Virus record (IMG/VR): IMGVR_UViG_3300045902_000030
Span: 1 to 35,800 of that record
DNA length: 35,800 nt
Strand: one strand, 5' to 3'
From: a virus
Shown here: one piece after another, positions 928-20,558 of the stretch
Position numbering within the stretch: the stretch's first letter is position 1
Layout: the number at the start of each line of letters is the position of its first letter
Translations under genes and position numbers: made by a program
The notes under the pieces: model-generated
The model's database searches: none
Told to the model about the DNA's origin: nothing
The model's input: the letters and a program-made list of their open reading frames with translations, nothing else

Positions 928-3900
928 ATGGACTTACTTGTTGAAGCAAATCATCTGGCAGCCTATTTAGCCGTAGGATTAAAACAAACTCTTGTAGAGG
1001 ATCGTTCGGAAAAGCGAATAATTGCCGCATATTCAGGTGAATTTCAACCATTTCACCAAGGCCACTATGAAGTATTTCAACGTCTTCAAAACAAATTTGG
1101 CAAAGACAATGTATATTTGATTACCGGCGAACAAGACGGAGATGATCCGGCCGAACCCATGTCATTCAAAGACAAGGAAGAAATTATCACGAAAATGTTT
1201 GGTATTTCCAAAGATAAAATTCAACAAGTTGAAAATCCATACATTCCCAAAGAGCTATTAGAGCGGTTTGATGCACAAACCACGGCATATGTCGCAATAG
1301 TAGATGAAGACGCCGCAGAACAACTTGAAAAAAGTGAATATTTTGAACATTATGCTGAAGACCTCCCCCTCAGAGGATACAGGCAAGCTGGTTATTTCTT
1401 AAGCGAACCCGAGGTTCGTATTAAAATTGGCAATCAAAATCTCTCCGATTCTCAACTCATTCAGATTCTTGGCTCCAAGCATACCAAGGATGAAGTAAAA
1501 AATCGTATTTTGAATAAGATGTTTCCAAAGAAGAATAGTAAAATATTTGATCTTGTGAAGAAAAAGGCGTCATTAGGTGCAAAGAAACTTGACGGCTTTG
1601 AATTTTCAGATGCCACCGGCCAAGATAACAAGGAAACTGGTTTTGGAAAGACCGATGCCAAGGGACAAGACACAAAAATACCCAAAGTTATTGGTTCAAA
1701 GAATACGCCCATCATGCAGCGTAAGATCCGCAATCCGTTAACAGGCCGTGCTATTAAAATTCAATCAGCCCTCAAATATCCACGATGGAAGCCTGTATAC
1801 AAGATGGCAAACCAAGTTCTCAAGGCAGCAGGAATCGACCGTAAAGATCGTACTGACGATCCTGAGGTTAATCAACGGTATCGTAGACGTGCTCAAAGAA
1901 TGAAGAAAGAAGATATTGCCAATGAATTGTCACAACAACTCACCGAGGAATTGTTGCAGATTGCTCGCACGGAGGGACTAAATTTAAACATTACAGGTTT
2001 AGGCGAAGTGACCCTTCGTCTTGAAAATGTTGACGCAGATTTTTTATTTGAAGGCGGTGCCGCCGGTCATCTTGCACATCCTTATGACGACGTAGATTTA
2101 AAGTTTGATGACTTTGAGGAAATTATTCGTCGTGGTTTGAGCGGCGGTCTTGACAAAGAGGCACCGGTTACAGAAAAACTTGACGGTCAAAATATTCAGT
2201 TTTCATACCGAGACGGCAAAGTAATTTTTGCTCGTAATCTTGGCCACGTAAAAAATGCCGGTAAAGATGCACTTGATGCTAAGGGCGTTCGTGATAAATT
2301 TGCCGGTCGAGGTAATATTGAAGCTAGCTTTGGTAACGCTGCCGATGACCTCGATGCCGCTATTCGTGCTTTGCCCGAAGCGCAACGTAAGAATATGTTC
2401 AAGGACGGTAAGAAGTGGGTAAACCTAGAGATTATCAATCCAGAAACTCAAAATGTTATTCCATATGACAAGAACATTCTAGTGTTTCACAATACCGTAG
2501 AATACGATGACGATGGCAACGAAGTAGATCGGGGCCAAGAAGAAGGTGCAGCATTAGCAAATATGATTCAGAAAGTTGGCGCACAGAAGCAAAAAACATA
2601 CGGTATTCAGGGTCCACAAAATGTTGCTTTTTCTGACAAAACTGATACTGTATTCAAGGCGCGTCAAGAACAGTATTTGCAAGACCTCGAAGAACTCCGT
2701 GCTAGTGCCGGTCTATCTAGCAAGGCTACACTTGGCGACTATCTCAAGAAGAAGTGGGCCGATAAACTTGATGTAGAAATAAAAAAGCAAAACATCAAGA
2801 TGGATGCGTCAACTAAAGAAAGACTTATCAAACGATGGGCGTTTGGTGACAAGTCATTGAGTGCTAGAGATTTTAAGAAAATGCATCCTGAACTTGATGA
2901 TTGGTTCAAGCGCATGGAAACCGAATCAGTATCATTCAATAAGCAAATTAAAAAGCCTATTGAGATGTTATTCCTGCGCGTAGGTGCAGACAGCTTAATC
3001 CGTATGACGAACTTTATTTCGGCAAATAATCCAGCGGCATCACAAGCACTCAAGTCTGCGGTAGCCGATGTTATTCGTCGAGTTCAAGCTAGCCCTGATC
3101 GTTCACCGGAATTACTTACCCGTGAAATTGAAAGACTACAGGGTATTGGTTTTGATCGAGTAGTGCCTACAGAGGGTGTAGTATTTATTTATGGTGGTAA
3201 GCCGTACAAGTTCACAGGTGCATTTGCTCCGGTAAATCAACTACTTGGCGCATTAAAATTTGGACGTATTGCAGATTCTGAAGATGGTGAAACAACCACA
3301 CAACCTCAATCAAATACCCATAATACAAAAAAGCCTATAGTGGTGTATCCAGGTAGATTCCAACCGTTTCACGCCGGTCACTATTCGGTATATAAGAGTC
3401 TTGTTGACAAGTATGGTGCAGAAAATGTGTATATCGGAACTAGTAACAAGACTGATAATGAAAAGTCACCATTTAATTTTGACGAAAAGCAATTTATTAT
3501 GTCGTCTATGTTTGGCATTCCAAAAGACAAGATTGTTCAAGTCAAGAATCCTTACGCACCAGAAGAAATTCTAAATAAGTTTCCCGAAGATACGCCGTTT
3601 ATCACCGCATTTAGCGAAAAAGATGCTCAACGTTTAACAGGCGGAAAATATTATCAAAAATTGCCCGATGACCCATCTCAGATTAAGGGTGATTACAAAA
3701 ACGTTGGATATTATATGATTGCACCTGAATTTCAACTTGATGTGGACGGAGAAAACATCTCAGGAACTACGGTTCGAAAAGTGCTCGGTGATCCTAAAAA
3801 GAGTCCGGCTGAAAAACAGAAGTTATTCAAAGCTATGTATGGTAAATTTAATCCCGATGTATATTCGTTGGTTGTTGGAAAGTTGTCTGGTAAAACACCA

Positions 3901-4116
3901 CCAACATCACCAAAAACTCCCGTTGCAAAGAAAGCGATGGTCAAAAAAGCGGCGCTAAAAACAACAGATAAGAAATTACAGAGCGTATTGAATAAAAAAG
4001 TTCGTAACCCCGAAACCAAGCGCGATATTTTGGTAAAGACCGCACTAAAGTATGACAAGAATCATCCAGCACGCAAGGTGGCAATGAAGATGATTCGACA
4101 AACCCAATCTAAGTAA
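928..4116 (+). CDS. Nucleotidyltransferase-ligase-nucleotidyltransferase fusion protein
   Basis: This is a 1062-residue multidomain enzyme. Residues about 30-220 form an HxGH nucleotidyltransferase (cytidylyltransferase/NMNAT fold) domain with H43-Q-G-H46. Residues about 370-785 look like a covalent nucleotidyltransferase (DNA/RNA ligase) domain: K417-L-D-G as motif I with the AMP-accepting Lys, E501 in NLEIINP as motif III, E749-G-V-V as motif IV and K761 in YKFTG as motif V. Residues about 800-990 form a second HxGH domain with H815-A-G-H818 and an intact ISGTTVR motif. A short NPxT...ALxY module occurs at about 267-300 and again at the C-terminus. ATG 928 is chosen because upstream in-frame starts lie inside the terminator. 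The N-terminus MDLLVEA resembles a prohead-protease site, so the protein may be packaged. RNA repair or NAD metabolism are both possible; substrate unknown. Confidence 0.7.
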   Translation: MDLLVEANHLAAYLAVGLKQTLVEDRSEKRIIAAYSGEFQPFHQGHYEVFQRLQNKFGKDNVYLITGEQDGDDPAEPMSFKDKEEIITKMFGISKDKIQQVENPYIPKELLERFDAQTTAYVAIVDEDAAEQLEKSEYFEHYAEDLPLRGYRQAGYFLSEPEVRIKIGNQNLSDSQLIQILGSKHTKDEVKNRILNKMFPKKNSKIFDLVKKKASLGAKKLDGFEFSDATGQDNKETGFGKTDAKGQDTKIPKVIGSKNTPIMQRKIRNPLTGRAIKIQSALKYPRWKPVYKMANQVLKAAGIDRKDRTDDPEVNQRYRRRAQRMKKEDIANELSQQLTEELLQIARTEGLNLNITGLGEVTLRLENVDADFLFEGGAAGHLAHPYDDVDLKFDDFEEIIRRGLSGGLDKEAPVTEKLDGQNIQFSYRDGKVIFARNLGHVKNAGKDALDAKGVRDKFAGRGNIEASFGNAADDLDAAIRALPEAQRKNMFKDGKKWVNLEIINPETQNVIPYDKNILVFHNTVEYDDDGNEVDRGQEEGAALANMIQKVGAQKQKTYGIQGPQNVAFSDKTDTVFKARQEQYLQDLEELRASAGLSSKATLGDYLKKKWADKLDVEIKKQNIKMDASTKERLIKRWAFGDKSLSARDFKKMHPELDDWFKRMETESVSFNKQIKKPIEMLFLRVGADSLIRMTNFISANNPAASQALKSAVADVIRRVQASPDRSPELLTREIERLQGIGFDRVVPTEGVVFIYGGKPYKFTGAFAPVNQLLGALKFGRIADSEDGETTTQPQSNTHNTKKPIVVYPGRFQPFHAGHYSVYKSLVDKYGAENVYIGTSNKTDNEKSPFNFDEKQFIMSSMFGIPKDKIVQVKNPYAPEEILNKFPEDTPFITAFSEKDAQRLTGGKYYQKLPDDPSQIKGDYKNVGYYMIAPEFQLDVDGENISGTTVRKVLGDPKKSPAEKQKLFKAMYGKFNPDVYSLVVGKLSGKTPPTSPKTPVAKKAMVKKAALKTTDKKLQSVLNKKVRNPETKRDILVKTALKYDKNHPARKVAMKMIRQTQSK

Positions 4117-4125
4117 AGGTATACT

Positions 4126-4752
4126 ATGGAAGAACGTCAATCACGAATGGAACAAAAGATCGACTCAATTCGAGGCGAGCTTGCCAAGAAAATACAGAAG
4201 TTCGACCGTCCCATTGTAGGATGGCGACCCGAAGTTATTGAACGAAAAGAAGGTGAAGTTTGGGACGACGATGGTAAACTATGGACTGTTAAAGACGGTA
4301 TTAAACAGTCCATTACAAAATTACAAGGTGCTAAAACACCGTGGTGGTGTCCAAAGTGTAACAAATCAATGAGTCATAGATTTGACGATAAATTTTATCG
4401 TATTTACAATCAATGCTATGACTGCACTATTGAAGAACATACCAAAATGAAATTGGATGGTACATGGGAAGAGTTTGAACATACTATGGTTCGTAGAAAT
4501 GAGATGGCGTGGTTACGAGATCACATTGAAGAATGCAAAGACTATATTCGCACATTTAGAACTCCACAGGTACATTTTCAAAATGGTGGATGGGAAGAAT
4601 TAGCAAGCATTAAACAATTTACTCAGTTGTTTGAACAAATTCAAGCAGATATTAAGTTCTGTGAAGACCGGCTTGCCGTATTACAACAAGAAGAACAGGA
4701 ACAAACGGAGATATCAAATGGCGAAAGAGTTGAAGATACAAATAGAGGATAA
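4126..4752 (+). CDS. Zinc-ribbon protein of unknown function
   Basis: The protein has 208 residues. The N-terminal 25 residues look helical and charged, followed by a central segment (GEVWDDDGKLW) and a zinc ribbon made of CPKC (about residues 79-82) and CYDC (about 101-104). The C-terminal half is helical and rich in Glu and Gln, with a possible coiled coil. AAAGG lies 7 bases before the ATG. It sits between the nucleotidyltransferase fusion and a membrane protein just upstream of the terminase, and its 3' end overlaps the next gene by 35 bases, so the two are probably co-translated. I see no small-terminase (gp16) signature. Function unknown. Confidence 0.7.
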   Translation: MEERQSRMEQKIDSIRGELAKKIQKFDRPIVGWRPEVIERKEGEVWDDDGKLWTVKDGIKQSITKLQGAKTPWWCPKCNKSMSHRFDDKFYRIYNQCYDCTIEEHTKMKLDGTWEEFEHTMVRRNEMAWLRDHIEECKDYIRTFRTPQVHFQNGGWEELASIKQFTQLFEQIQADIKFCEDRLAVLQQEEQEQTEISNGERVEDTNRG

Positions 4753-5383
4753 AGGCGGACTTTTTCGTTTTAGAACTTTGCTTTATGGTGTTTTGATTGT
4801 TATAGGCTTAACACTGGCAGTAGTTATTGCGTTTAATCTTGGTCGAGATGATGGTTTAACCACATATCGTAAAGAATTCAAGACATATCAAAATACCGTT
4901 GTAGTTCCAACATTGGCATTATCAGATAGTCTAAAGAAAAAAGTAAACAGTTTGCTAGTTATTGCTGATTCTACAAAAACTGTTGCGGAATCTTTGACTG
5001 TAAAAATTAATGGGATGCAACGTAACAATAACTTATTACGTGTGCAGAATGCAAAGTTATCAGATAGTTTAAAATCTATTCTGTTGCCTCCAGAGTGTGA
5101 TGCATATAAAGATTTAGTAGTTTCGCTAGAAACTGAAGTAGACAGTTTACACGCTACTGTAAATACTCTTGAAAAACGCGATACGCTTCGATTGGTTGAA
5201 ATTAACAATCTTCGTATAGGACTGTCGTTTCAAACTACCCGATCAGACAGTTTACAGAAAGTTGTAATTAACTTTCCAAAACCACCAAAACCCCGAAAAC
5301 TGCTTGGTATTGAGTTGTCCAATAGAACAATGTTTGTTGCGGGGATCGTTGTCGGTGCCACGGCAGTTGGAGTTGTTAAATGA
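4718..5383 (+). CDS. Membrane-anchored coiled-coil protein, spanin-like candidate
   Basis: The protein has 221 residues from ATG 4718, preceded by CGGAG; a longer in-frame extension upstream would lie deep in the previous gene and is rejected. A hydrophobic segment (LLYGVLIVIGLTLAVVIAF, about residues 21-39) fits one N-terminal membrane anchor. It is followed by about 150 residues with heptad-like Leu and many SDSL/DSLKK stretches suggesting coiled coil, a Pro-rich FPKPPKP segment, and a short hydrophobic C-terminus (FVAGIVVGATAVGVV). An anchor plus a periplasmic coiled coil resembles inner-membrane spanins, but the C-terminal hydrophobic stretch is unusual and no partner spanin was recognised. 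Its stop overlaps the terminase start (ATGA). Confidence 0.6.
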   Translation: MAKELKIQIEDKGGLFRFRTLLYGVLIVIGLTLAVVIAFNLGRDDGLTTYRKEFKTYQNTVVVPTLALSDSLKKKVNSLLVIADSTKTVAESLTVKINGMQRNNNLLRVQNAKLSDSLKSILLPPECDAYKDLVVSLETEVDSLHATVNTLEKRDTLRLVEINNLRIGLSFQTTRSDSLQKVVINFPKPPKPRKLLGIELSNRTMFVAGIVVGATAVGVVK

Positions 5384-7074: not shown

Positions 7075-7078
7075 AGTT

Positions 7079-7554: not shown

Positions 7555-7561
7555 GATTTTT

Positions 7562-7897
7562 ATGATTAGAATGGCGCGATTGATTGATATGCCTAGTTTC
7601 AATGGTGTAGAACTTGGAAAAGTAATGGCCGATGCGCGCTTACGAGCGTTTAAATCACCAGTTACCGAAAATTCTGGTGAGGAAGGTCAAGAACCACCTT
7701 CTTATATGAACGTGTCTAATTTGCAAGCTATGAAATCCAACATTGAATACTTGTTGTCACATGTTACCGAAGAAACCGAAATAGGAAATTGGGCCGAAGA
7801 TCATATCGCAGTTGCGGCACATGAACTTTCTCAAGTTGCTGACTACTTTCGCTCTAAGGAACAGGAGATAGACCGTGGCTCAAATCCTACTCAGTAA
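7562..7897 (+). CDS. Small acidic protein of unknown function
   Basis: The protein has 111 residues. ATG 7562 is used; ATG 7571 three codons later is an alternative, and neither has a strong ribosome binding site. The middle is Glu/Pro-rich and looks disordered, and the C-terminal half (IGNWAEDHIAVAAHELSQVA) looks like two helices of a type seen in other phage structural proteins. Its end overlaps the next gene by 23 bases and contains that gene's ribosome binding site, so the two are linked in translation. Confidence 0.6.
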   Translation: MIRMARLIDMPSFNGVELGKVMADARLRAFKSPVTENSGEEGQEPPSYMNVSNLQAMKSNIEYLLSHVTEETEIGNWAEDHIAVAAHELSQVADYFRSKEQEIDRGSNPTQ

Positions 7898-8561
7898 TTT
7901 ACTCAATGAGGGGTGCGGCTATTCCAAAATGGCACCCACGCCACGAAGAGAATCCTCTAGTAATGACGATGATGTGGCTCCAGAAACCGGCGTAATGACT
8001 TCTGGTGCGGATACTATTCCCCGAGAAAAATCTGATAAGCTATTTAAAGCGCTTAAACTTGATAAAACCACGGTCGATCCCCATCAGTTTCATATGGGAG
8101 TCAATGTTGAACTTGAACACAACGATGTAACCCACGGCGACCTAAAGAAAATTGCGCTTATTGCATTAGCTCACCTTGCTGAAGATCCCGCATACTATAC
8201 CAAGCTATCACAAGTTGAAGAAAATGACCGCATCGAGAATGATCCATGTTGGAAAGGGTATAAGATGGTAGGTCAAAAAGAGAAAAACGGCCGAGATGTG
8301 CCAAATTGTGTACCTGAATCTCGTATGCCGTTGATGGGAGATCTATTGGATGAAAGTAAGCCTGCCAAGGGTAAAAAGTGGAAGACGAATGGTGTATCTC
8401 ACGGTCAAAAAGGTGTAAGAATCTCTCCAGGAACACCTCGCGGTGATGCTTATTGCGCTCGCTCGGCTGGAATCAAGGGTGATTGGAAAAATGACCCAAA
8501 CAGTCCAAACCGTCTTAGCCGTAAGAAGTGGAAGTGCCGTGGCAAAAAGTCAATGAAGTAA
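7875..8561 (+). CDS. DUF5661-like protein with basic Cys-rich C-terminus
   Basis: The gene starts at GTG 7875, with AGGAG at 7862-7866; 228 residues. The N-terminus MAQILLSNLLNEG contains an LLNE motif that could be a prohead-protease propeptide. Residues about 72-115 (FHMGVNVELEH, then IALAHLAEDPAYYTKL) match the DUF5661 pattern of a Glu-His motif followed by an ExPxYYxxL helix. A middle segment, CWKGYKMVGQKEKNGR, and a C-terminal segment, YCARSAGIKGDW followed by RKKWKCRGKKS, are both motifs I recognise from uncultured large phages. The paired Cys and many Lys/Arg suggest metal or nucleic-acid binding. It has several recognisable modules but no known activity; probably a virion or DNA-associated protein. 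Confidence 0.65.
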   Translation: MAQILLSNLLNEGCGYSKMAPTPRRESSSNDDDVAPETGVMTSGADTIPREKSDKLFKALKLDKTTVDPHQFHMGVNVELEHNDVTHGDLKKIALIALAHLAEDPAYYTKLSQVEENDRIENDPCWKGYKMVGQKEKNGRDVPNCVPESRMPLMGDLLDESKPAKGKKWKTNGVSHGQKGVRISPGTPRGDAYCARSAGIKGDWKNDPNSPNRLSRKKWKCRGKKSMK

Positions 8562-8572
8562 AGGAGCATTAT

Positions 8573-8893: not shown

Positions 8894-8899
8894 TATATT

Positions 8900-10831: not shown

Positions 10832-11710
10832 ATGAGAGGAATCACCGTAAATCACAACAAGATCAAGAATACAGGCGTACTTTTTGAAATTCTGGTTCGT
10901 CAGATAACATCTGATATACTGGAGGGTCGCACTGATTCAGCAGCACTGAATATTTTAAAGAAATATTTTGGTGCCAATCGAGAACTTGGTAAAGAACTGC
11001 AACTTTATCAAGTCATATTCAATGCGCCGAATCTTAATGAATCGCGAGCATTGCAATATCTCAATATGATTATCAAGCAAAGAAAAAAGCTTGATGAACG
11101 AAAACTTGCCGCAGAAAAATATGAACTTATCAAGGAAATTAAGAATTATTATGACCTTGAAAAGTTTTTGTCATGCAAGATTCCTTCCTATAAGCTCCAT
11201 GCGTCAATTTATAAGACGTTCATGGCCGAAGCAAAATTTGGCGGAGATGCCATTCTGAATATTCAGGATGTAGCGTCCGCTCGTTTTACTTTAATTGAAC
11301 ATCTTATTGGCACCGGTCGTAAGAATGCTAAGAAAGAAGAGTCGGCACTTCTTGAAGAATTCAAGAATCAAACAGAAGATCTACGCTTATTGACTTATAA
11401 GATTATGATCGACCGATTCAATGAAAAGTATCAAGATTTAAATGACAAACAAAAGTCACTTCTTCGAGAATATATTAATGATGTTTCTGGTAATAACACC
11501 TTAAAAAATTACATTCTTCAAGAAGTGCCGACTCTTCGCAATAGCATTCAACGAAAGAGCAATCGTCTAAATGACCGAGTTATGCAAATTAAGATCAACG
11601 AAGTTATTTCACAGCTTTCAAATATTGGAAAAAATCGCGGTATCAAAGATAACGAAATTACGGCTTTGATGATTGCATATCAGATTGAAAAGGAGCTCGA
11701 CAATGAGTAA
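10832..11710 (+). CDS. Helical head-region protein between portal and protease
   Basis: The protein has 292 residues, is predicted almost all-helical and is rich in Lys, Glu, Ile and Asn. The segment KNTGVLFEILVRQITSDILEG near the N-terminus recurs, from memory, in other uncultured T4-like phages at this locus. It lies between gp20 and gp21, where T4 carries the prohead core genes 67 and 68, so a role in the prohead core is a positional inference only. It is far longer than T4 gp67 or gp68. Its 3' end overlaps the next gene by 8 bases. Confidence 0.7.
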   Translation: MRGITVNHNKIKNTGVLFEILVRQITSDILEGRTDSAALNILKKYFGANRELGKELQLYQVIFNAPNLNESRALQYLNMIIKQRKKLDERKLAAEKYELIKEIKNYYDLEKFLSCKIPSYKLHASIYKTFMAEAKFGGDAILNIQDVASARFTLIEHLIGTGRKNAKKEESALLEEFKNQTEDLRLLTYKIMIDRFNEKYQDLNDKQKSLLREYINDVSGNNTLKNYILQEVPTLRNSIQRKSNRLNDRVMQIKINEVISQLSNIGKNRGIKDNEITALMIAYQIEKELDNE

Positions 11711-12431
11711 TTCCGCACTAAAAAAGCTCATTCGTGAGCTCGTAGAAGAAGAATTGGCCGAGATTAGCACTTCTGCTAATGCCGGTCCTTACAATACGCC
11801 ATTTGCTTTCCGTGGTAACAGTGCCGAGGGTAAGGCTAAGGCCCGGAAGAATGCCACACAAGCTGGTATGTTGGTGGTGAGGGGTAGGGAAGAGAAGGCC
11901 GACGATGCCGGTGAACAGTCGGTTGAAACGGTTCCGTTTGGTGAGAAGGGTGCTGGAGCGTTGAAGAAGCCGAAGGCTGAACCGAAGCCAAAGATTGAGG
12001 AGTCTACTTCTGTAGAAGATCGTATTAAGAATAAAGAAGAGCGACTTAGAAAATTAGAACAATCAAAGAGTAAAATGTGGCAAGGCAGTAAAAAATACGA
12101 TGATACAATTAATACTATTAGAGTTCTAAAACAACAAATTGCCGATCTAAAGAAGGAAAAGTCTTCTTCGAAAACGGAAGTAGTTCAAGAGAACCGATAC
12201 GCGGAACTCAAGGCCGCTGATGGTTCTCCAACTCGTAAAATTGCTGAGGCTGTTCGTGAAATCAACCGACAAATTAGTGAAATTGATCGCGTCGTCACAT
12301 TAAATTCTCGACTGAAGAAAGAATCGGGACTTGACGGCAGCAGTCTCTATAAGAATACGGTAAAGAGCATTACTCGTCTTGAATCAAAATTGCAACATCT
12401 CTCAGCTAAACTTCGCGAACTAAAGGCTTAA
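11703..12431 (+). CDS. Prohead core-like coiled-coil protein (gp67/68 position)
   Basis: ATG 11703 has AAGGAG 8 bases upstream; 242 residues. The N-terminus MSNSALKKLIRELVEEEL has the LIRE motif shared with two neighbouring ORFs and fits a capsid-targeting peptide. Then come a GPYNTPFAF segment, a low-complexity Lys/Glu/Pro linker, and two strongly charged helical stretches (about 100-150 and 175-240) likely to form coiled coils. A second (I/L)xE-like stretch, IEEST, occurs near residue 90. The position between portal and protease, the charge and the coiled coil all fit a cleavable prohead core protein, but homology to T4 gp67 or gp68 is not demonstrated. Confidence 0.65.
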   Translation: MSNSALKKLIRELVEEELAEISTSANAGPYNTPFAFRGNSAEGKAKARKNATQAGMLVVRGREEKADDAGEQSVETVPFGEKGAGALKKPKAEPKPKIEESTSVEDRIKNKEERLRKLEQSKSKMWQGSKKYDDTINTIRVLKQQIADLKKEKSSSKTEVVQENRYAELKAADGSPTRKIAEAVREINRQISEIDRVVTLNSRLKKESGLDGSSLYKNTVKSITRLESKLQHLSAKLRELKA

Positions 12432-12432: not shown

Positions 12433-13488
12433 ATGAGTCAACTACTTGTTGAATATTTCCCGCTACAATACGATCAGTCTCAGATTCTTGCTGAAGCTGC
12501 AAATCCCCATGCTCCTATTAAAGTTAAGGGTATTTTGCAACGTGCTAATGCTAAGAATCAAAATGGTCGTGTTTATCCCAAAGAAATTTTGGTCCGTGAA
12601 AGTCAAAAATATGAAAATGAGTTTATCAAGCAACGACGCGCGTTGGGCGAGCTCGATCATCCAGAGTGCGTAAGTGATTGTGATATAATGACTTATGATG
12701 GGTGGCGCGATATCAAAACCGTTGAAGTGGGTACCTATGTTGCTACATTGAATACACAGACGCAACGGCTGGAATATCATCCTATTACTCGCGTTATCAA
12801 TCAACCATATAAAGGTGTTATGTATCACATCAAGGGTAAAAATATTGATGTCGTAGTAACACCAAATCATAGATTTGTGCTTCAAGATAGAAACGGTAAA
12901 TTTTTAGAAAAAACGGCGGAAGAAATTTATCAACTATCACAAACACTAACCGTTTCGCATTTGACAATTCCAAATGAACTTTTTATAGAAAAATCAAAAG
13001 GCATTCATCTAGATTTTCGCCATTTGTCAATTGATCCAGTGGATTACGATGACACGGTTCATTGTGTCACAGTAGAAAATGGAACGTTTTATGCTCGACG
13101 AAACGGAAAATCGTTTTGGTCAGGCAATTCCACTGTAGTCAATCTTCGTAATGTCAGTCACAACATCACGGAGATGCACTGGGAGGGTGACGACCTGGTG
13201 GGCACTATTGAAATTCTATCTACTCCATCAGGTAATATTGTCAAAGAATTAATGAAAAATGGCATTCGTCTTGGTGTATCGAGCCGAGGAGTTGGATCGG
13301 TTCGCAATCTCGGTGAAGGTTCTGTTGAAGTAGATGAAGATTTCAATCTCATTTGCTTCGACATAGTTTCAAATCCGTCCACCCACGGTGCATTTATCAA
13401 TGAAAATGCCGGTCATCAAACTGTAAATCGTCAATACGAGTCATTGGATCGTCTAGTATATGACTTTCTTGCTGAGATCAAGCCATGA
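12433..13488 (+). CDS. 21: Prohead core protease (gp21-like) precursor with intein
   Basis: This is the serine protease that cuts scaffold and capsid propeptides after (I/L)xE to trigger head maturation. The precursor has 351 residues. The N-extein (1-78) ends GELDHPE with the catalytic His H76. The C-extein (233-351) starts STVVNLRNVSHNI and contains GVSSRG (S283/S284), the catalytic Ser box. Joined, the exteins give about 197 residues, near T4 gp21 (212). Residues 79-232 are an intein that splits the protease 3 residues after its catalytic His, so the precursor should be inactive. Self-cleavage sites may be LVE7 and LAE21-A. It directly follows the core-like gene and overlaps the next gene (ATGA). 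Confidence 0.92.
   Translation: MSQLLVEYFPLQYDQSQILAEAANPHAPIKVKGILQRANAKNQNGRVYPKEILVRESQKYENEFIKQRRALGELDHPECVSDCDIMTYDGWRDIKTVEVGTYVATLNTQTQRLEYHPITRVINQPYKGVMYHIKGKNIDVVVTPNHRFVLQDRNGKFLEKTAEEIYQLSQTLTVSHLTIPNELFIEKSKGIHLDFRHLSIDPVDYDDTVHCVTVENGTFYARRNGKSFWSGNSTVVNLRNVSHNITEMHWEGDDLVGTIEILSTPSGNIVKELMKNGIRLGVSSRGVGSVRNLGEGSVEVDEDFNLICFDIVSNPSTHGAFINENAGHQTVNRQYESLDRLVYDFLAEIKP
12667..13128 (+). other. Mini-intein in the prohead protease gene
   Basis: This is a 154-residue Hint-domain intein (residues 79-232 of the precursor). Block A starts with nucleophile C79 in CVSDCDIMTYDGW. Block B is VVVTPNHRFVL with T143 and H146. The block F region is TVHCVTVENGTFYA. Block G ends FWSGN with N232, followed by S233 as the +1 nucleophile. 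The penultimate residue is Gly instead of the usual His, a variant I recall from other phage inteins. At 154 residues there is no room for a homing endonuclease, and no LAGLIDADG or HNH motif is present, so it is a mini-intein that cannot home on its own. Confidence 0.9.
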
Positions 13489-13727
13489 AAATAAAGATGA
13501 ATGAACTTCGTCAAATTATTCGTGAAGAACTAAAACATACTTTACTAGAATTTGATGCTAAGGATATGCCGCCTGGTACTAGTTGGAAAGTTGCTGGTAA
13601 GGGGTGGGCTGCTAAGAATAAGAATGGCGTGACCAATTATTGGTATGGTAAGGATATGAACAAGAATAAGGAAAACGCTGATAAATTCCGTAATGACACT
13701 ACTGCTAAGCCAAAAACTGGAGCATAG
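13485..13727 (+). CDS. Small internal-protein-like gene with targeting-type N-terminus
   Basis: The protein has 80 residues and its ATG overlaps the gp21 stop (ATGA). It starts MKIKMNELRQIIREEL, an amphipathic helix with an IIREE motif fitting (I/L)xE cleavage after E14. The rest is basic and small (SWKVAGKGWAAKNKNGV, then YWYGKDMNKNKENADKF), rich in Lys, Asn and Gly. A short N-terminal helix with an (I/L)xE site plus a basic body is how T4 internal proteins are built, and these are packaged and ejected with the DNA. A head-packaged DNA-binding peptide is therefore a fair inference; no family match is known. Confidence 0.6.
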   Translation: MKIKMNELRQIIREELKHTLLEFDAKDMPPGTSWKVAGKGWAAKNKNGVTNYWYGKDMNKNKENADKFRNDTTAKPKTGA

Positions 13728-13734
13728 TCTCAAC

Positions 13735-13749: not shown

Positions 13750-13787
13750 AAGACAATTTATTGTAATTAAATTATTAGAAAAACGAT

Positions 13788-13808
13788 ATCAATTATAATA
13801 TTGATTTT
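13788..13808 (+). terminator. Weak AT-only hairpin followed by T run
   Basis: ATCAAT pairs with ATTGAT (6 bp) around a TATAAT loop and is followed by TTT. The stem has few G/C pairs, so termination would be weak; it may be chance in an AT-rich gap. Confidence 0.2.
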
Positions 13809-13845
13809 GTTGAAGCGTAGTTAAATAAACAACTTGGAGATTACA

Positions 13846-14613
13846 ATGCCAGCTAAATCCAAGGCACAAGCTAGATTTATGGGTATGGTTCACGCTTTCA
13901 AGAAAGGTGAAATGCCTGGTGCTTCTGCTGCCGTAAAGAGGGCAGCCAGTAGTATGTCTGATGACGAGGCAAAACGGTTTGCGTCTACAAAACACCGGGG
14001 TCTTCCTGATAAAATTAGGGGTGAGAGTATGTTTGGACAAGTCGTAGCTCAATACAATGAATATGGCGATACGCTTCGTAATTCATTCTCGATGCGAGAA
14101 ATGGCCGAGAAGCTCATGGATATTGCCGATTTTGCAGAACAGACTCTTACCAATGAAACCGCCGGTAATGATTGGTATGATGCGCACACCATTCGTCGTA
14201 ATATAAAAGAAATGCGTGCATATGTGAAAGAATTTCACAAGTTGGCCGAAGAATACGATACCATTCGTACTCGTGCTACGGCATTGTATGATGATATGGG
14301 ACGAGTTCTAGAACGTTATTTTGAAGTTACCGGATATGACACCGATAATGATATGGAAGATGATTTGATACCTGCAAATGGGGAAAAGAACCCTGAACAA
14401 CGAAGTTCACACGTTCCGCAAGTACATGAAACTGATTTTTCTGATGTCGGTGGTATTACTGAACCAAAATCTCGTCGTGATGAACTCAAGAAAAAGTTAC
14501 GGGAGCGGGTAGTAGCTATAGCCCGTCACAAGCTCACGGGCGAACAACTAGTACAATTTGATACACTAGACCCCGCAAAACAACTTCGCGCGGCGTGGAG
14601 AATTGTAAAGTGA
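13846..14613 (+). CDS. DUF3008-like N-terminus with helical C-terminal region
   Basis: ATG 13846 is preceded by GGAGA; an upstream in-frame TTG is rejected. The protein has 255 residues. The N-terminal about 55 residues (MPAKSKAQARFMGMVHAFKK, then FASTKHRGLPDK) match the small DUF3008 proteins, found as stand-alone genes in many bacteria and phages. The rest is helical and charged, with a coiled-coil-like middle, an acidic linker around residue 175 and a basic C-terminus (KSRRDELKKKLRERVV). The fusion of a DUF3008-type head to a long helical body is unusual. It lies between gp21 and gp22, so a head role is possible. Function unknown. Confidence 0.65.
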   Translation: MPAKSKAQARFMGMVHAFKKGEMPGASAAVKRAASSMSDDEAKRFASTKHRGLPDKIRGESMFGQVVAQYNEYGDTLRNSFSMREMAEKLMDIADFAEQTLTNETAGNDWYDAHTIRRNIKEMRAYVKEFHKLAEEYDTIRTRATALYDDMGRVLERYFEVTGYDTDNDMEDDLIPANGEKNPEQRSSHVPQVHETDFSDVGGITEPKSRRDELKKKLRERVVAIARHKLTGEQLVQFDTLDPAKQLRAAWRIVK

Positions 14614-14666
14614 AAAAGCTAATTCGAGAAGAGCTTGAAAACATTATCCTACCGATGTGTAATTAG
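14610..14666 (+). CDS. 18-residue ORF resembling a capsid-targeting peptide
   Basis: GTG 14610 overlaps the previous stop (GTGA), with GGAG at 14597-14600. It encodes only VKKLIREELENIILPMCN. The KKLIREEL part closely matches the N-termini of the proteins at 11703 and 13485. It could be a truncated head-protein gene, a leader peptide for the membrane protein at 14673, or a free targeting peptide. Confidence 0.4.
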   Translation: MKKLIREELENIILPMCN

Positions 14667-14672
14667 AACACC

Positions 14673-15002: not shown

Positions 15003-15013
15003 ACGGGGTATAC

Positions 15014-15289
15014 ATGGGAAAGAAACAGAATAAAGAAAAGGCCACGGGTCTTGAAGTTTATGTAAATTTGTCCGGTGAAAATAAGAAGGACCGAGATGCC
15101 GTAGATCTTGCTCTACGAGAGCTTAAGAAAAAAATTAAAAAGAGTGGTCTTATGCAAGAGCTTCGTATACGAGAGGCATATATGTCACCTTCAAAGTATC
15201 GTAAGTATCGCAAGAATGAGGCCATTAAGCGGCGGAAGCGGGATGAACGTAAAAACGAATGGTCACGTAAAAATACTACTGAATGGTAA
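15014..15289 (+). CDS. Ribosomal protein bS21-like protein
   Basis: The protein has 91 residues and is very basic. Residues about 31-82 follow the bS21 pattern: an ALRELKKKIKKSGLMQELRI helix, the REAYMSPS turn, and a long Arg/Lys helix (KYRKYRKNEAIKRRKRDERK). Cellular bS21 is about 70 residues; here there is an extra 25-residue N-terminus. bS21 sits near the mRNA exit channel of the 30S subunit and influences initiation. Phage-encoded bS21 homologues are known and are thought to join host ribosomes and favour phage mRNA. Its place inside the head gene cluster, just before the scaffold, suggests late expression. A basic head protein that resembles bS21 is the alternative. Confidence 0.7.
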   Translation: MGKKQNKEKATGLEVYVNLSGENKKDRDAVDLALRELKKKIKKSGLMQELRIREAYMSPSKYRKYRKNEAIKRRKRDERKNEWSRKNTTEW

Positions 15290-15328
15290 AAAATTTAGGT
15301 AAAATTGTTATTATTAAGTTTTACTTAC

Positions 15329-15335
15329 TATTTAT
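15329..15335 (+). promoter_or_regulatory. TATTTAT motif, candidate late promoter element
   Basis: TATTTAT (context ACTATTTATTTG) lies 111 bases before the scaffold gene ATG and just upstream of a string of hairpins. It could start the gp22-gp23 transcript, whose products are needed in the largest amounts. Confidence 0.4.
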
Positions 15336-15336
15336 T

Positions 15337-15397
15337 TGTGTAATCACAGAATACGCTTTCACCTATAAAGCGTGCGGATGATTTTCGGTCTAACCGA
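15337..15397 (+). promoter_or_regulatory. Hairpin-rich leader upstream of gp22
   Basis: Three short stems follow each other: TGTG/CACA with a TAAT loop (15337-15348), ACGCTTT/AAAGCGT with a 7-base loop (15353-15373) and TCGGT/ACCGA with a CTA loop (15385-15397). A terminator-like hairpin follows. Four hairpins in about 90 bases suggest a structured 5' leader, but no known riboswitch was recognised. Confidence 0.4.
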
Positions 15398-15401
15398 TAT
15401 G

Positions 15402-15422
15402 AGGGCTCTGAATAGCCCTTTT
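15402..15422 (+). terminator. Terminator-like hairpin before gp22
   Basis: AGGGCT pairs with AGCCCT (6 bp) around a 6-base loop and continues into TTT. It lies 25 bases before the gp22 ATG. It may end the upstream transcript, or act as an attenuator for the capsid genes if they are transcribed from upstream. Confidence 0.5.
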
Positions 15423-15446
15423 AGACGTTTCTAGGAAACTAATACT

Positions 15447-16598
15447 ATGGCTAAAGACACATTATTAAAGGAAGCCATTGCCGACGCAAAGATGGTCAAG
15501 GAAGCAGCTATTGCAAATGCAATGATTACCTTGAAGGAATCTTTCAAGCCGCAACTCTCTTCAATGCTTGCTGCAAAGCTTCGTAATGAAGAAGAGGGCG
15601 ACGGCGATGATGATGCAGTGGAAGAACAGAAGAAGCTTGATTCTTCTGATATTGGCGGCGGTGCCGTGACAGTTGACAACCCAGGACCAAAGAAGCCATC
15701 GGCAGTAGCGTCTTCGTCTTCAGATATTGAAAATCCAGAACAGGAAGTAGAAACTTTCGGTGAAGGTATTGAAGATATGTTTGATGATGAGGAAGAAGAT
15801 GAACTTGATGATGAAGTTCCTGATGCCGGTGTTGACGGTGAAGAAGAAGTTGACAACGACGGCGATGAAGACGATCTTGACCTTGAAGCAATCATTCGTG
15901 AACTTGAAGCCGATCTTATCGACGACGAAGGTGAAGAAGATGTGCCAACAGAGGGATTTGATGATGTTCACGCCGGTGAAGAGGTTGACGGTGCTGTAAC
16001 AACGGAAACCGTTGAAGGCGACGGTGATGACGGTGTTCACCGTGATGGCAAGTCTCATCCGGCCAAATATGGTTTTAATGGCGGTAAGGTTACAGAAACA
16101 ACCCTTGGTGAAGACGCCGAGGAAGAAGTAGACCTCGAAGAAATTCTTCGTGAAATGGAAGCAGATGAAGATGATATGGAAGATTCTTCTGAACAGATTG
16201 CAACCGAAAACGTTGAGCTCAAGCGTTCATTGCGTGAGCACCGCGAGGTGATCAAGCTACTTCGTAATCGTATCAACGAAGTCACATTGCTCAATAACAA
16301 GTTAATGTTTACAACTAAAATTTTCCGCAACTTCCAGTTGTCGGAAGGTCAGAAAAAGAAAGTTGTGGAGCAATTTGACCGCGCTACGACGCTTCGTGAG
16401 GCAAAGCTTGTGTATTCCACAATTGCCGAGTCTCTTGGTGTGAAGGCTGTTACCCCTAAGAAGGTAGCATCAAAGATCACCGAAGGTGCTTCTAAGACAG
16501 TTGCATCTACGAAGCCGAAGTCTCAGACAGTTCTAACAGAAGGCGATGCAATTGTTGCTCGTCTCCAGAAGCTAGCCGGCATTCAACTAAACGGCTAA
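15447..16598 (+). CDS. 22: Prohead core scaffold protein (gp22-like)
   Basis: The main scaffold of the prohead is assembled inside the capsid shell and then destroyed by gp21. It has 383 residues, against 269 in T4. A helical N-terminus (MAKDTLLKEAIADAK) is followed by an extremely acidic, low-complexity middle (about 50-235) made of Asp/Glu runs, then a conserved helical C-terminal domain with LLRNRINEVTLLNNKLMFTT and FDRATTLREAKLVYSTI, typical of T4-type gp22. Several sites of (I/L)xE type occur, for example LLKE-A and IRELEAD, as expected for a protein cut to small peptides. AGGAA precedes the ATG. The acidic expansion is larger than in T4. Confidence 0.88.
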   Translation: MAKDTLLKEAIADAKMVKEAAIANAMITLKESFKPQLSSMLAAKLRNEEEGDGDDDAVEEQKKLDSSDIGGGAVTVDNPGPKKPSAVASSSSDIENPEQEVETFGEGIEDMFDDEEEDELDDEVPDAGVDGEEEVDNDGDEDDLDLEAIIRELEADLIDDEGEEDVPTEGFDDVHAGEEVDGAVTTETVEGDGDDGVHRDGKSHPAKYGFNGGKVTETTLGEDAEEEVDLEEILREMEADEDDMEDSSEQIATENVELKRSLREHREVIKLLRNRINEVTLLNNKLMFTTKIFRNFQLSEGQKKKVVEQFDRATTLREAKLVYSTIAESLGVKAVTPKKVASKITEGASKTVASTKPKSQTVLTEGDAIVARLQKLAGIQLNG

Positions 16599-16623
16599 TC
16601 ACTCTAACCTATAGGAATATACT

Positions 16624-18192
16624 ATGAGTTTGAATCTAAACCAGCTTCTGTCTGAGAGCTCGACGCCGCTTGACGCTCTTCTAGCACAGTCCCGTGGACT
16701 TGCCAAGAAGTGGGAAAAGACGGGCTTGCTCGAAGGCATGAAATCCGAAATAGAACGCGGCAACATGGCCGTGCTTCTTGAAAACCAAGCTAAGCAGCTT
16801 GTACTTGAAAGCTCCCGTACCGGCGGTGCTAACGCAGAACAGTGGTCCGGTGTTGCTCTTCCACTAGTTCGTAAGGTCTTTGCAGAAATTGCTGCTAAGG
16901 AATTTGTATCGGTTCAGCCGATGAATCTCCCAAGCGGTCTTATCTTCTACATGGACTTTAAGTATGGCACAAACCAGCCACCGCGCCTTGCAGGTCAGTC
17001 CGTATATGGTGATACGACTTCATCGACGGCACCAGTTGGCGGTCTATATGGCGCAGGTCGTTTTGGTTATTCCATCAACGAAGTAACTGCATCGGGTCTA
17101 AGCATTACTTCGTCCTCGTTGGCAACAACGGCATCTGTCAACTTCTTGCAGGGTGTCAATCCGTCAGGTTTGGCTGAGTTTGAAGTTCCTCTTGCGAGCC
17201 TCCCAGGAGCTGACGTCAATGCCGTTCGTTCTTTCGTACCATCGGGTACATTATTTACTGGTTGGCTTCCAGCATTTACTCGTCTTAATGCTGCCAAGAC
17301 CCACGTGGTCTTCGTTGCTAATGCAACGGCCGGTGCTACAATTAACCAAGTTGACTACACAGTTCAACCTGTTGATTCTAACCGTGGCGACTTTGAAGAC
17401 CGTGTTGGTAGCTCGATTCCGCCAACGGGTGTGGATCTCGGTATTCCAGAAATTGACATTGAACTTCGCTCTGAGCCTATTGTTGCCAAGAGCCGTAAGC
17501 TCAAGGCCGTCTGGACGCCGGAACTCGCACAAGACCTCAATGCTTACCACAGCATTGATGCCGAAGCTGAATTGACGGCAATGTTGAGTGAATACATTTC
17601 TTTGGAAATCGACCTTGAAATCCTAGAAATGTTGCTCACCAACGCTCAGACCACGGGTTACTGGTCAGCCAAGATTGCTCAGGTCTGGAATGGTACGGCG
17701 TTTGTACCTGATACAAACCTCGCCGCTCAGGCTTGGACCACAATGACCTGGTACCAGACGCTTGGCAATGAAATTCAGAAGGTCAGCAACAAGATTCATC
17801 AGCTCACCCTTCGTGGTGGTGCTAACTTCATTGTTGTGTCACCATCTGTTGCTTCAATTCTTGAAGTAATTCCAGGTTTCACTGCTAAGACGGACGGCAA
17901 CCAGAGCAACTTTGCAATGGGTGTCTCGCAGGTTGGAAGCTTCCAGAACCGCTTCCAGGTCTATAAGAATCCTTACCTCACGGGTAATGTGGCTCTTATG
18001 GGCTTCCGTGGTTCTAACTTCCTTGAGACTGGTGCTGTGTATGCTCCATACATCCCACTCATTATGACTCCGTTGGTCTATGATCCACAAAACTTCACGC
18101 CACGTCGTGGGGTAATGACTCGTTACGCTAAGAAGATGGTTCGTAGCGAGTTCTTCGGTAAGATCGTCATTGACGGTGTTCCGAACCTCTAA
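16624..18192 (+). CDS. 23: Major capsid protein (gp23-like)
   Basis: The main shell protein of the head has 522 residues, near T4 gp23 (521), with an HK97-type fold expected. An N-terminal propeptide of about 62 residues is likely: it is charged and helical, and the best maturation site is QLVLE62-S63, at the place of the T4 cut after residue 65. Conserved segments include VALPLVRKVFAEIAAKEFVSVQP, YMDFKYGTN, and the C-terminal YAPYIPLIMTPLVYDPQNF followed by a TRYAKKMV region. The codon choice is more uniform and GC-richer than in flanking genes, as expected for the most expressed protein. AGGAA precedes the ATG, and a strong terminator follows. Confidence 0.95.
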   Translation: MSLNLNQLLSESSTPLDALLAQSRGLAKKWEKTGLLEGMKSEIERGNMAVLLENQAKQLVLESSRTGGANAEQWSGVALPLVRKVFAEIAAKEFVSVQPMNLPSGLIFYMDFKYGTNQPPRLAGQSVYGDTTSSTAPVGGLYGAGRFGYSINEVTASGLSITSSSLATTASVNFLQGVNPSGLAEFEVPLASLPGADVNAVRSFVPSGTLFTGWLPAFTRLNAAKTHVVFVANATAGATINQVDYTVQPVDSNRGDFEDRVGSSIPPTGVDLGIPEIDIELRSEPIVAKSRKLKAVWTPELAQDLNAYHSIDAEAELTAMLSEYISLEIDLEILEMLLTNAQTTGYWSAKIAQVWNGTAFVPDTNLAAQAWTTMTWYQTLGNEIQKVSNKIHQLTLRGGANFIVVSPSVASILEVIPGFTAKTDGNQSNFAMGVSQVGSFQNRFQVYKNPYLTGNVALMGFRGSNFLETGAVYAPYIPLIMTPLVYDPQNFTPRRGVMTRYAKKMVRSEFFGKIVIDGVPNL

Positions 18193-18224
18193 GTTGTTGT
18201 AACATAACAAGTTAGAATAAAAAG

Positions 18225-18251
18225 GGCGACCTGTAATGGGTCGCCTTTTTT
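18225..18251 (+). terminator. Rho-independent terminator after the major capsid gene
   Basis: GGCGACC pairs with GGTCGCC (7 bp) around a TGTAATG loop, followed by six T. A run of A before the stem makes it partly bidirectional. It ends the gp22-gp23 transcript. Confidence 0.9.
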
Positions 18252-18286
18252 ATTTGATCAAATCGTGGTTTGGTCATAACACATCC

Positions 18287-18293
18287 TACTTAT
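18287..18293 (+). promoter_or_regulatory. TACTTAT motif upstream of the HNH endonuclease
   Basis: TACTTAT (context CCTACTTATAG) lies between the capsid terminator and the homing endonuclease, 24 bases before its ATG. With the GGAGGT ribosome binding site at 18309-18314, this would give the endonuclease its own transcript. Confidence 0.35.
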
Positions 18294-18317
18294 AGAAGAA
18301 CGCCCCATGGAGGTATT

Positions 18318-19898
18318 ATGACAAAATCATATAAAAACCGCCCGCCGCGAGGAAAGACTTCAAAAAATACACCGTGGCATCGGCCGTGTCCACAATGTAA
18401 ACAAACCATGTATTATTCCTCAAAAGGAAATTTAGTAAAGGCAATCAAAAATAATCGTGTATGTATGCAGTGTAAAAATATATTCACTGATGAGTATCGG
18501 CAAAAAATTGCCAGTTCACTCAAGGGTAAAACATACATAAATCGTAAATCAAATAAGAAAACGACTATTAGCACATTCCATAAATCGTGTCCGGCATGTA
18601 ATAGTATCATATACTATGCAAACAAATATTCACTTGATCGTTCCATACGAACCAATGCGGTGTGTAATGGTTGTGCGTCGCACCTATACAAAAAAACATT
18701 CAACTGTGTTATTACACAAGATCATATCAATAAAATGACAGCCACAAAGGCTGGCTACGACAGTTATGACGAATATGTGATTGATTATCCAAAAAAGCAA
18801 CAATACCGGCGAGAGGTCCGCCGGATCACACGAGCACAACCCATTCATTTGTTGCCAAATTATTCTGCTTATCAAACAAGCGTTGGTAGAAATGGGATAC
18901 AAAATGCTTATCAACTTGATCATATCATAAGCATTGACGAGGGCTATAAACGAAATATTCCACCGCATGTGATCGGCAATATTAAAAACCTACAAATCAT
19001 TAGTTGGGAACATAATATTGCAAAGCGGAATAAACCATCACAGTCGTTTTATTCGTGGATACACGATATCTTGAATGATGCGGTATTTGATCATATGGTC
19101 GGTCAATTTCCAGTATCAGTATATTCAAAACAGCACGGCGCAGTCATTCACTATACCGATATACGAATTGACGGTGAGTTTAGCTCAGGTATATCATCAT
19201 CATCCCTGTATAAAGTTCGTCAGACGGTGCTTGATAGAAATGAAATATTTATCAATGTATTTAGTTCTGAGTGGGAAGAAAAAACCGAGTTGGTGAAACA
19301 TAAAATTTTACATATTCTGAATCGTTCGTCAACGACCCCACTCTATGCTCGCACAATGCGCCCGGCGGTGATTTCTAATACCGTTGCGAAAGAATTTTTA
19401 GAAGAACATCATATTCAAGGATTTACCCCATCAACATATTATTATGGATTATACCACGGTGTTACTTTGGTTGCTGTGATGACATTTTCCAAAAACCGTG
19501 TTGTTACTGGTAATCGCCCTGCCGAAAACACATATGAGATGGTACGATATGCTACACATATGAATTATAAGATTATTGGTGGATTTTCAAAATTATTACA
19601 ATTTTTTATCCGTGAACATAGGCCAATTACAATATATTCATATGCCAATTTACGATATAGTCAATCAACCACAGTATATGACCGTACCGGATTTAAACCT
19701 ATACATACCACCGCACCTGGATATTTTTATGTCAAGGATGGCATGGCGTTGCACCGGTATAGATTTAGAAAATCAACACTGGTATCACAGGGATATGACC
19801 CGAATTTGTCTGAAACCGATATTATGAAACAACTTGGATACGACCGAATTTGGGACTGCGGGCACCGTCGATATGAACTAAATTGTTTAAACGACTAA
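18318..19898 (+). CDS. HNH homing endonuclease with shared C-terminal domain
   Basis: This free-standing homing endonuclease has 526 residues. ATG 18318 follows a perfect GGAGGT; an upstream in-frame TTG is rejected. Two zinc ribbons lie at the N-terminus (CPQC...CMQC about residues 23-52; CPAC...CNGC about 92-120). The HNH nuclease core is LDHIISI (D201-H202), KNLQ (N224) and WEHNIAKRNK (H232). The C-terminal about 190 residues (YARTMRP, GLYHGVTLVAVMTFSK, GGFSKLL, YDRIWDCG) form a GNAT-like domain that also ends the second endonuclease at 25881. It sits between gp23 and the neck genes as an insertion, is AT-richer than its neighbours, and probably spreads by cutting related phages lacking it. 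Confidence 0.88.
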   Translation: MTKSYKNRPPRGKTSKNTPWHRPCPQCKQTMYYSSKGNLVKAIKNNRVCMQCKNIFTDEYRQKIASSLKGKTYINRKSNKKTTISTFHKSCPACNSIIYYANKYSLDRSIRTNAVCNGCASHLYKKTFNCVITQDHINKMTATKAGYDSYDEYVIDYPKKQQYRREVRRITRAQPIHLLPNYSAYQTSVGRNGIQNAYQLDHIISIDEGYKRNIPPHVIGNIKNLQIISWEHNIAKRNKPSQSFYSWIHDILNDAVFDHMVGQFPVSVYSKQHGAVIHYTDIRIDGEFSSGISSSSLYKVRQTVLDRNEIFINVFSSEWEEKTELVKHKILHILNRSSTTPLYARTMRPAVISNTVAKEFLEEHHIQGFTPSTYYYGLYHGVTLVAVMTFSKNRVVTGNRPAENTYEMVRYATHMNYKIIGGFSKLLQFFIREHRPITIYSYANLRYSQSTTVYDRTGFKPIHTTAPGYFYVKDGMALHRYRFRKSTLVSQGYDPNLSETDIMKQLGYDRIWDCGHRRYELNCLND

Positions 19899-19907
19899 GT
19901 TGTAAAC

Positions 19908-19914
19908 TATTTAT
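19908..19914 (+). promoter_or_regulatory. TATTTAT motif, candidate late promoter element
   Basis: TATTTAT lies in the 42-base gap after the endonuclease, followed by TATAAA, 26 bases before the ATG at 19941. The surrounding CTATTTATTATAAA string is identical to that at 13734-13747. Confidence 0.45.
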
Positions 19915-19940
19915 TATAAACCCGATTTCGGAGATCCTTC

Positions 19941-20558
19941 ATGGAACATAGTATGAAGTTATCTGTTTTGTTAGAGCGAGCGCTAACAGAAGATGAGAAA
20001 ATGAAGATGTTGTCACAGACCGTAAAGAATCCCGAGACGGGTAATGATATCACTGTGAAAACGGCATTGGGATATCCCAAGAATCACCCGGCTCGAAAAG
20101 CGGCCGCTAAGATTTATGCACAATTTATGAATAAAACATCGGCCGATCAGAAGCCGGCACCTGATCCGACTGCCGGTCCCGGTTCATATCCATCGAACCA
20201 CTTGCCATTGGATCCTGCTAACAACAAAAACATACCAGATGACAGTCCATTTTTACGCTGGATCAGAGCTAAGCAGGAAAAAAGGCGACGTCTAGGTCAA
20301 CGTCAACAACCACAAGAACCCTCTGCTCAGTCTTCCGTGTCCGGTCCGGTTAACAGTCCCGGTGCAGATTCATTGAACAAGGGGCCAAACACCTCGCCAG
20401 CATATGATAAATCGCGTTCAAATCCAACATCTGTTCCTCAACAACCACAATCAGTTGATTTTGATGACGATGATTATTATCACGCGCGCCGCGATGATGC
20501 ATTAACTGGCGACTATTATCGCAGATGGCGTGATCGCCGACCCCGTAGATTTAGATAA
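19941..20558 (+). CDS. Virion-region protein with NPET module and disordered tail
   Basis: ATG 19941 is preceded by CGGAGAT; 205 residues. The N-terminus (MEHSMKLSVLLERAL) contains an LLE motif that could be a gp21 site. Residues about 27-60 hold a module (VKNPETGNDITVKTALGY, then PKNHPARKAAAKIY) nearly identical to the C-terminus of the 1062-residue fusion protein at 928. The remainder is Pro/Ser/Asn/Gln-rich and low-complexity, with a basic tail (YYRRWRDRRPRRFR), so probably disordered with possible nucleic-acid contact. It lies just before the neck genes. No known family. A minor head protein or packaged DNA-binding protein is plausible. Confidence 0.6.
   Translation: MEHSMKLSVLLERALTEDEKMKMLSQTVKNPETGNDITVKTALGYPKNHPARKAAAKIYAQFMNKTSADQKPAPDPTAGPGSYPSNHLPLDPANNKNIPDDSPFLRWIRAKQEKRRRLGQRQQPQEPSAQSSVSGPVNSPGADSLNKGPNTSPAYDKSRSNPTSVPQQPQSVDFDDDDYYHARRDDALTGDYYRRWRDRRPRRFR

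Follow-up and report, generated by a model that had tools for sequence, protein, structure and literature searches.

The window analysed here is the entire 35.8-kb virus record IMGVR_UViG_3300045902_000030 (35,800 nucleotides), in which many proteins encoded in the head gene cluster appear to begin with short N-terminal segments, here called tags, that end in a gp21-type [LI]xE site. The window contains T4-like genes for a terminase, a T4-type portal, an S77 prohead protease, a T4-type major capsid protein, and a head-tail adaptor. A scaffold-like protein was assigned from its position and family, while a putative sheath, a putative tube, and a putative long repeat protein were assigned from position and size. 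Judged by the capsid protein, the nearest records are LR756508 (484 kb, unannotated, 57% identity), the immuto phages of Flavobacterium, Microcystis phage Mel-JY01, and Rhodothermus phage RM378; the capsid protein search also returned 80 IMG/VR loci. The gp21-family protease domain S77 (PF03420) scored above the cut-off in the window and in 16/16 relatives. The positions of the tags and of the associated features are given in Table 1.

A preliminary description of this DNA had listed nine N-terminal tetrapeptides and read them as a targeting code. All nine are encoded in frame at their starts, of which those at 7875 and 14610 are GTG codons. VLLE of the protein at 19941, however, falls outside the strict motif [LI][LI]xE, the site at 14610 belongs to an 18-codon open reading frame (ORF), and further [LI]xE sites ending at residue 20 of the 11703 protein (E20) and at E21 of the 12433 protein had been missed. 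With the glutamate at residues 5-16, the strict motif is present in 8 of the 30 curated complete genes, a set from which the edge-cut genes 2-832 and 28872-35800 were excluded. Shuffled N-termini gave an expectation of 1.39 and random internal 16-mers one of 0.62 (p=0.0002 in both cases). With a first-ATG caller, 5/33 genes of the window carried the motif against 1.0 in shuffles (p=0.004, ratio 4.9). The strict motif occurs in 8/21 genes to the left of the neck gene and in 0/9 to the right of it (Fisher p=0.035). For the loose motif [LIVMF][LIV]xE, the figures are 9/21 and 1/9 (p=0.10), the single match on the right being LVAE of the putative tail tube protein.

For comparison, one first-ATG caller was applied to 14 records, and strict motifs with the glutamate at residues 7-16 were tallied against shuffles. 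An excess was found for LR756508 (49/656, ratio 3.0), immuto (13/211, 3.1), G004 (9/213, 2.2), Mel-JY01 (9/234, 2.1), G001 (12/276, 1.9), and T4 (11/247, 1.8), with p values from 0.002 to 0.044. No excess was seen in the S77-less phages SPO1 (3/175), crAss001 (1/102), and N4 (1/74). The claim that the motif is commoner at N-termini than expected by chance is therefore confirmed, and phages with an S77 protease show the excess often, not always. T4 served as the positive control, and here 25 ORFs match the loose motif. These include gp68, gp21, gp22, gp24, ipII, ipIII, Alt, and the DNA-end protector gp2, and they also include denV and DNA ligase. Because of the latter two and because only about one in three T4 matches is correct, the motif alone is an enriching filter and no code.

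In LR756508, the pattern is plain to see. There, 29 motif glutamates lie at residues 9-10 and 34 at residues 14-15 (63 at four positions), compared with an average of 2.6 per position among the counts listed for residues 30-60. A long tag of ~22 residues, probably helical and roughly M-K-L-T-E-x-K-L-R-K-I-I-R-E-E-I-x-x-V-L-x-E, opens 21 proteins, and homology between their cores was detectable in 0/210 pairs; a mean core identity from global alignment was set aside because the alignment inflates it. In 15 of the 21, a second [LIVMF]xE follows 7-8 residues past the first site, against a shuffle mean of 2.3. A short tag with the approximate sequence M-[KR]-L-K-x-L-L-x-E was represented by 20 seeds from 11 core groups. 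Seeds for both tags were chosen by pattern, so the likeness within each tag comes partly from selection; the long-tag set was reduced from 25 to 21 when four seeds proved to be short-tag or out of register.

We searched the 3,321 proteins of the 14 records with the long-tag profile of LR756508. The best match outside LR756508 is the window protein at 13485 (independent E value, iE=1.1e-5, residues 1-20), followed by immuto 102836 (1.3e-3). At iE<1, there were also six matches inside LR756508 proteins and five inside proteins of other records. One segment placed on unrelated mature parts is seen in LR756508, and the window has one profile match, 13485.

Many short-tag proteins belong to a family in which R-G, P-R, and E are nearly invariant among 21 aligned members, referred to as the RG-motif family. 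Its members mostly match PHROGs of unknown function (11975, 12810, 15932), and a comparison of the short-tag family with Pfam and PDB yielded no named family. As read from the alignment, this family of about 20 short-tagged LR756508 proteins (L085, L104, L106, L108-L110) has an RG...E arrangement reminiscent of the R-S-E ADP-ribosyltransferases. From this pattern, the description as ADP-ribosyltransferase-like is taken as a lead only. Other tagged LR756508 proteins include one with a Zeta_toxin match (8e-9) and one with a weak KptA match below the cut-off (6e-5).

The next point concerns which [LI]xE site is conserved in the head-protein families. Among 76 capsid proteins, [LI]xE is kept at the first site in 40, at E37 in 75, and at E53 in 67; at E62, the glutamate is kept in 75 and the whole [LI]xE in 36. 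In the protease family (n=37), E7 is kept in ten members and replaced by Asp in 23, and [LI]xE is found at the later column (window E21) in 33. The scaffold family (n=27) has [LI]xE at E9 in 18 members and at E31 in all 27. In the small family of 13485, E22 is kept in 4/4 and E14 in 3/4. For the 11703 family, 30 non-redundant members were placed and nine family ORFs were not. The junction reads [LI]xE in 23 of the 30, [VMF]xE in three, has another P3 residue in three, and lacks the glutamate in one; two of the three with another P3 residue (L056 and L069) have LEE one residue further on. This junction directly precedes a conserved [ST]T...GY.TP core, and the part upstream of it varies widely in length and sequence. 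Each of the window proteins 11703, 12433, and 13485 has a tag of 20-22 residues that ends in the conserved site. As these comparisons show the later sites to be better conserved, the cut likely lies downstream of the first motif, often at a second [LI]xE at about residues 20-22. The first-14-residue motif as the conserved cut of capsid protein and protease was rejected on these grounds, and the proposal that it forms by itself a reliable code for the packaged proteins is not supported. The first 14 residues would contain the targeting helix, sometimes with an earlier site. ILAE at E21 of the protease is proposed as its self-cleavage site on the basis of this alignment.

A cut is not the only way to account for such segments. 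The tags could serve as helices for docking on the scaffold or on a different assembly partner and stay uncut, with [LI]xE as a by-product of amphipathic LxxLLxE helices. The Asp found in 23/37 proteases agrees with this, as does the low-confidence model of 13485 (mean predicted local distance difference test score, pLDDT, 61.5), in which a helix spans residues 5-21 and the core begins at residue 33. In T4 IPIII, moreover, D at position 10 blocks cutting and still permits targeting (PMC9026906). A cut better explains the near-invariant [LI]xE at the fixed 11703 junction, whatever lies upstream, and also the fixed spacing of the second site in the long tags. Hence, we consider uncut helices unlikely.

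Tags appear to be exchanged between proteins. Relatives of the window 13846 core begin with the short tags MIRLKDLLNEED, MKLTQLLKENEE, MLKLKDLLNETE, and MKLKDILEES, whereas the window protein has a DUF3008 domain at the N-terminus in this place. In L021 and L025, DUF3008 is fused to an 11703-type protein instead. DUF3008 could be an alternative targeting domain. Its motif is SKAQ..FMGM..LPDK, and across phages it is fused to the N-termini of different head-cluster proteins.

In immuto (MW353176), 12/26 genes are tagged in the region 100.7-119.0 kb just upstream of the terminase gene, compared with 17/212 elsewhere; the bounds of this island were set after the matches had been seen, so a p value would not be independent. 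Three genes of the island and gene 1803 elsewhere have a common FDLKKFLVENKLT-type start. The tag may also be an address for another compartment or complex of the infected cell, such as the membrane or a replication site, with its use in the head cluster being secondary. Tagged LR756508 genes are scattered over many regions and include kinase-like and KptA-like enzymes, and immuto gene 81481, which adjoins baseplate genes, has a similar N-terminus. Against such an address, LR756508 153398, a head protein at the gp68 position just upstream of the protease, bears the same tag type, the tag ends at a protease-type site, and T4 packages the ADP-ribosyltransferase Alt likewise (PMC9026906, PMC5694885). 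We therefore regard an address outside the head as rather improbable.

We propose, with a probability of about 75%, that the motif marks removable N-terminal propeptides for targeting to the capsid core, which work like the T4 capsid-targeting sequence (CTS) and exist in a short and a long form. This rests on the protease gene, the N-terminal excess, the modular appearance of a single tag on unrelated cores in LR756508, and the conserved [LI]xE sites. A short segment (about 6-12 residues) or a long one (~20-22 residues, an amphipathic helix) would dock the protein on the scaffold core of the prohead. After packaging, the gp21-like S77 protease would cut behind [LI]xE, the mature protein would be freed inside the head, and delivery into the host would follow. 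In two-site proteins, the second site (E20-22) would more likely be the final cut. Where proteases have Asp at the first site, this site may allow targeting without being cut, and the cut would occur at the later one.

Several results speak against tags as cleavable targeting propeptides. The first motif is not well conserved among capsid proteins and proteases (40/76 and 10/37), and immuto gene 81481 has a LIKE N-terminus beside baseplate genes. The short-tag profile of LR756508 misses the T4 internal proteins, and its sole T4 match at iE<1 is an internal stretch of another protein. Consequently, we do not claim descent from the T4 CTS; common descent with the tag of the T4 internal proteins is not supported by the profiles, and only the pattern is alike. 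The T4-like interpretation of the preliminary description is supported in part, by the S77 protease, the N-terminal excess, the T4 control, and the 21 unrelated LR756508 cores. Furthermore, G002, G003, and RM378 show no excess and P-SSM2 a non-significant one, although all four encode S77. The S77-less controls comprise three phages, starts in most genomes are first-ATG calls, and only about 8 of the 25 loose T4 matches are known head or injected proteins, leaving about two thirds that are not known head proteins.

The four records without a significant excess and the precision of about one third in T4 would also be expected if the motifs arose by chance from composition, since phage N-termini are rich in the helix-forming residues L, I, K, and E, and four-residue motifs would then be frequent. 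Shuffles of the same residues, however, give 1.39 instead of 8 in the window, one tag stands on 21 unrelated cores with a second site at fixed spacing, and the S77-less phages show no excess. Chance is thus very improbable.

We suggest, more tentatively than the cleavable propeptides themselves, that the tag might be a general virion export code in this clade. Phages of the LR756508 type would then use a single cleavable helix to send several dozen proteins to the head, for injection as an arsenal for host takeover, possibly including a large ADP-ribosyltransferase-like family, a zeta-toxin-like kinase, and a KptA-like enzyme.

Table 1. Tags, motif-bearing N-termini, and associated features of the window
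Feature	Positions	Strand	Details
NMNAT-like protein N-terminus, 1062 aa, two cytidylyltransferase-like domains	928..999	+	LLVE ends at E6; second site TLVE ends at E24; from translation
DUF5661 protein N-terminus, GTG start, short-tag type	7875..7910	+	LLNE ends at E12; PF18905 6e-16
Tag of protein at T4 gp67/gp68 position	11703..11762	+	LIRE at E12; conserved junction at E20, ELAE before ISTS
S77 prohead protease N-terminus	12433..12495	+	LLVE at E7; conserved ILAE before A at E21
Prohead protease gene (Peptidase_S77) with intein-like insert	12433..13488	+	PF03420 6.9e-25; PF14890 1.3e-7
Long tag MKIKMNELRQIIREELKHTLLE on small basic protein	13485..13550	+	First site E14; second site E22
Head-cluster protein, N-terminal DUF3008 domain	13846..14613	+	PF11450 4.8e-6
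18-codon GTG ORF, tag-like, without cargo	14610..14666	+	Overlaps preceding stop; KKLIREELENIIL
Scaffold-like protein N-terminus	15447..15539	+	LLKE at E9; second [LI]xE at E31
Major capsid protein propeptide	16624..16809	+	LLSE at E11; conserved E37 (GLLE), E53 (VLLE), E62 (LVLE)
Head-cluster protein N-terminus	19941..19976	+	VLLE at E12; kept in L213 and L214

Scans of viral contigs with the genes at 928, 13485, 19941, and 14673 returned one or two relatives apiece. The protein at 928 had been described as a nucleotidyltransferase-ligase fusion. Its cytidylyltransferase-like domains are supported (PF01467, 2e-14), whereas the ligase half is not, as the Pfam RNA_ligase match stays below the cut-off (E=0.061). 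The Mel-JY01 relative of this protein begins MGKLINILLSE. A small domain, NPETg..I.VktAL.Y.KnHPARkaA, is common to the C-terminus of the 928-4116 protein and the front of the 19941-20558 protein, and it is also found inside a protein of L020. A start of the 19941 gene at its second ATG (19953) would give MKLSVLLE with the glutamate at residue 8. The reading frame at 7875 is preserved in L212, and a relative from the DUF5661 region of L020 begins MIKLKSLISE.

The ORF at 14610, previously counted as a motif-bearing head protein, was rejected as a gene. Its reading KLIREELENI is absent from all 214 other loci searched, the one match (L001) being the window, and in the relatives L211 and L215 the space is too small for such an ORF. 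It may be what remains of a lost tagged gene, or have arisen by chance.

The intein-like insert of the protease (Pfam Intein_splicing, 1.3e-7) spans residues ~100-218. In the close relative L210, the protease has 197 residues and is uninterrupted; that of LR756508 is also interrupted, with a 576-residue open frame and two S77 pieces. A ribosomal protein S21-like protein (phrog_21469, 4e-10) is encoded at 15014-15289 within the head cluster. A small ORF resembling it occupies the equivalent position in LR756508, and Mel-JY01 has an annotated S21 gene close to its protease gene. Two long ORFs at 18270-19898 and 25881-27524 have zinc-finger-like cysteine pairs and similar C-termini (..YDRIWDCG..) and break up the order of capsid and tail genes; they are probably free-standing homing endonucleases. 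From 28872 to 35800, a very long open frame with SSAQV/GLVSSS-type repeats runs past the contig end, and its product is probably a tail-related repeat protein.

For the use of the motif, the naive rule has to be corrected: rather than the first motif, the second [LI]xE near residues 20-22 is frequently the cut to seek. Should the tag be a packaging code, the injected protein set of T4-like phages becomes predictable from genomes, including those of phages that were never isolated, and if the export code applies, head cargo could be read from the genome sequence alone. The tag would then offer a test of the number of injected effectors in giant phages, and tags would be a supply of new packaging signals for loading proteins into phage heads.

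Our literature search turned up no paper describing tags of this kind, whether for this clade or for LR756508. In T4, N-terminal propeptides of 10-19 residues bring internal proteins into the scaffold core and are removed by gp21 (PMC9026906, PMC3012670, PMC5694885). For IPIII, targeting involves residues 4 and 7, and cutting involves residues 8 and 10 (PMC9026906). Alt is packaged in the same way and loses six residues after ITE (PMC9026906, PMC5694885). The T4 CTS (IPI-IPIII and the Alt propeptide, cut by gp21) and the tags described here are alike in being N-terminal segments of ~6-20 residues on core or internal proteins, with a hydrophobic P3, a terminal glutamate, and an S77 protease. 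In addition, T4 gp24 (MAKINELLRES) resembles the window capsid protein (MSLNLNQLLSES), and T4 gp22 (MLKEQLIAEA) resembles the window scaffold (MAKDTLLKEA). Unlike T4, this clade also has a longer, probably helical form that contains two sites, and LR756508 carries the tag on at least 21 proteins without detectable core homology and on a multi-member RG-motif family, compared with a handful of proteins in T4; the tags also give no profile match to those of the T4 internal proteins.

In SPN3US and phiKZ, the prohead protease likewise cuts head-protein propeptides after a glutamate motif, and the diverged proteins gp53 and gp54 have identical N-terminal 15 residues (PMC5694885). As far as that account describes them, the motif there is of the AxE or SxE type and many of the propeptides are longer than 100 residues, whereas here it is [LI]xE after 6-22 residues. 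In T-even phages, diverse internal proteins are recognised via a common N-terminal signal (Repoila 1994 as cited in PMC12373910), and Ip1, Ip2, and Ip3 are injected and inhibit type IV restriction (PMC12373910). According to this source, one signal serves many unrelated cores, as in the phages described here; in contrast, no sequence relationship between that signal and the window tags was found, and the cargo of the window is predicted from its genes. The principle is thus already known from T-even phages (PMC12373910); the novelty lies in its probable use by so distant a clade, in a long form with two sites, and in the large number of tagged proteins of LR756508.

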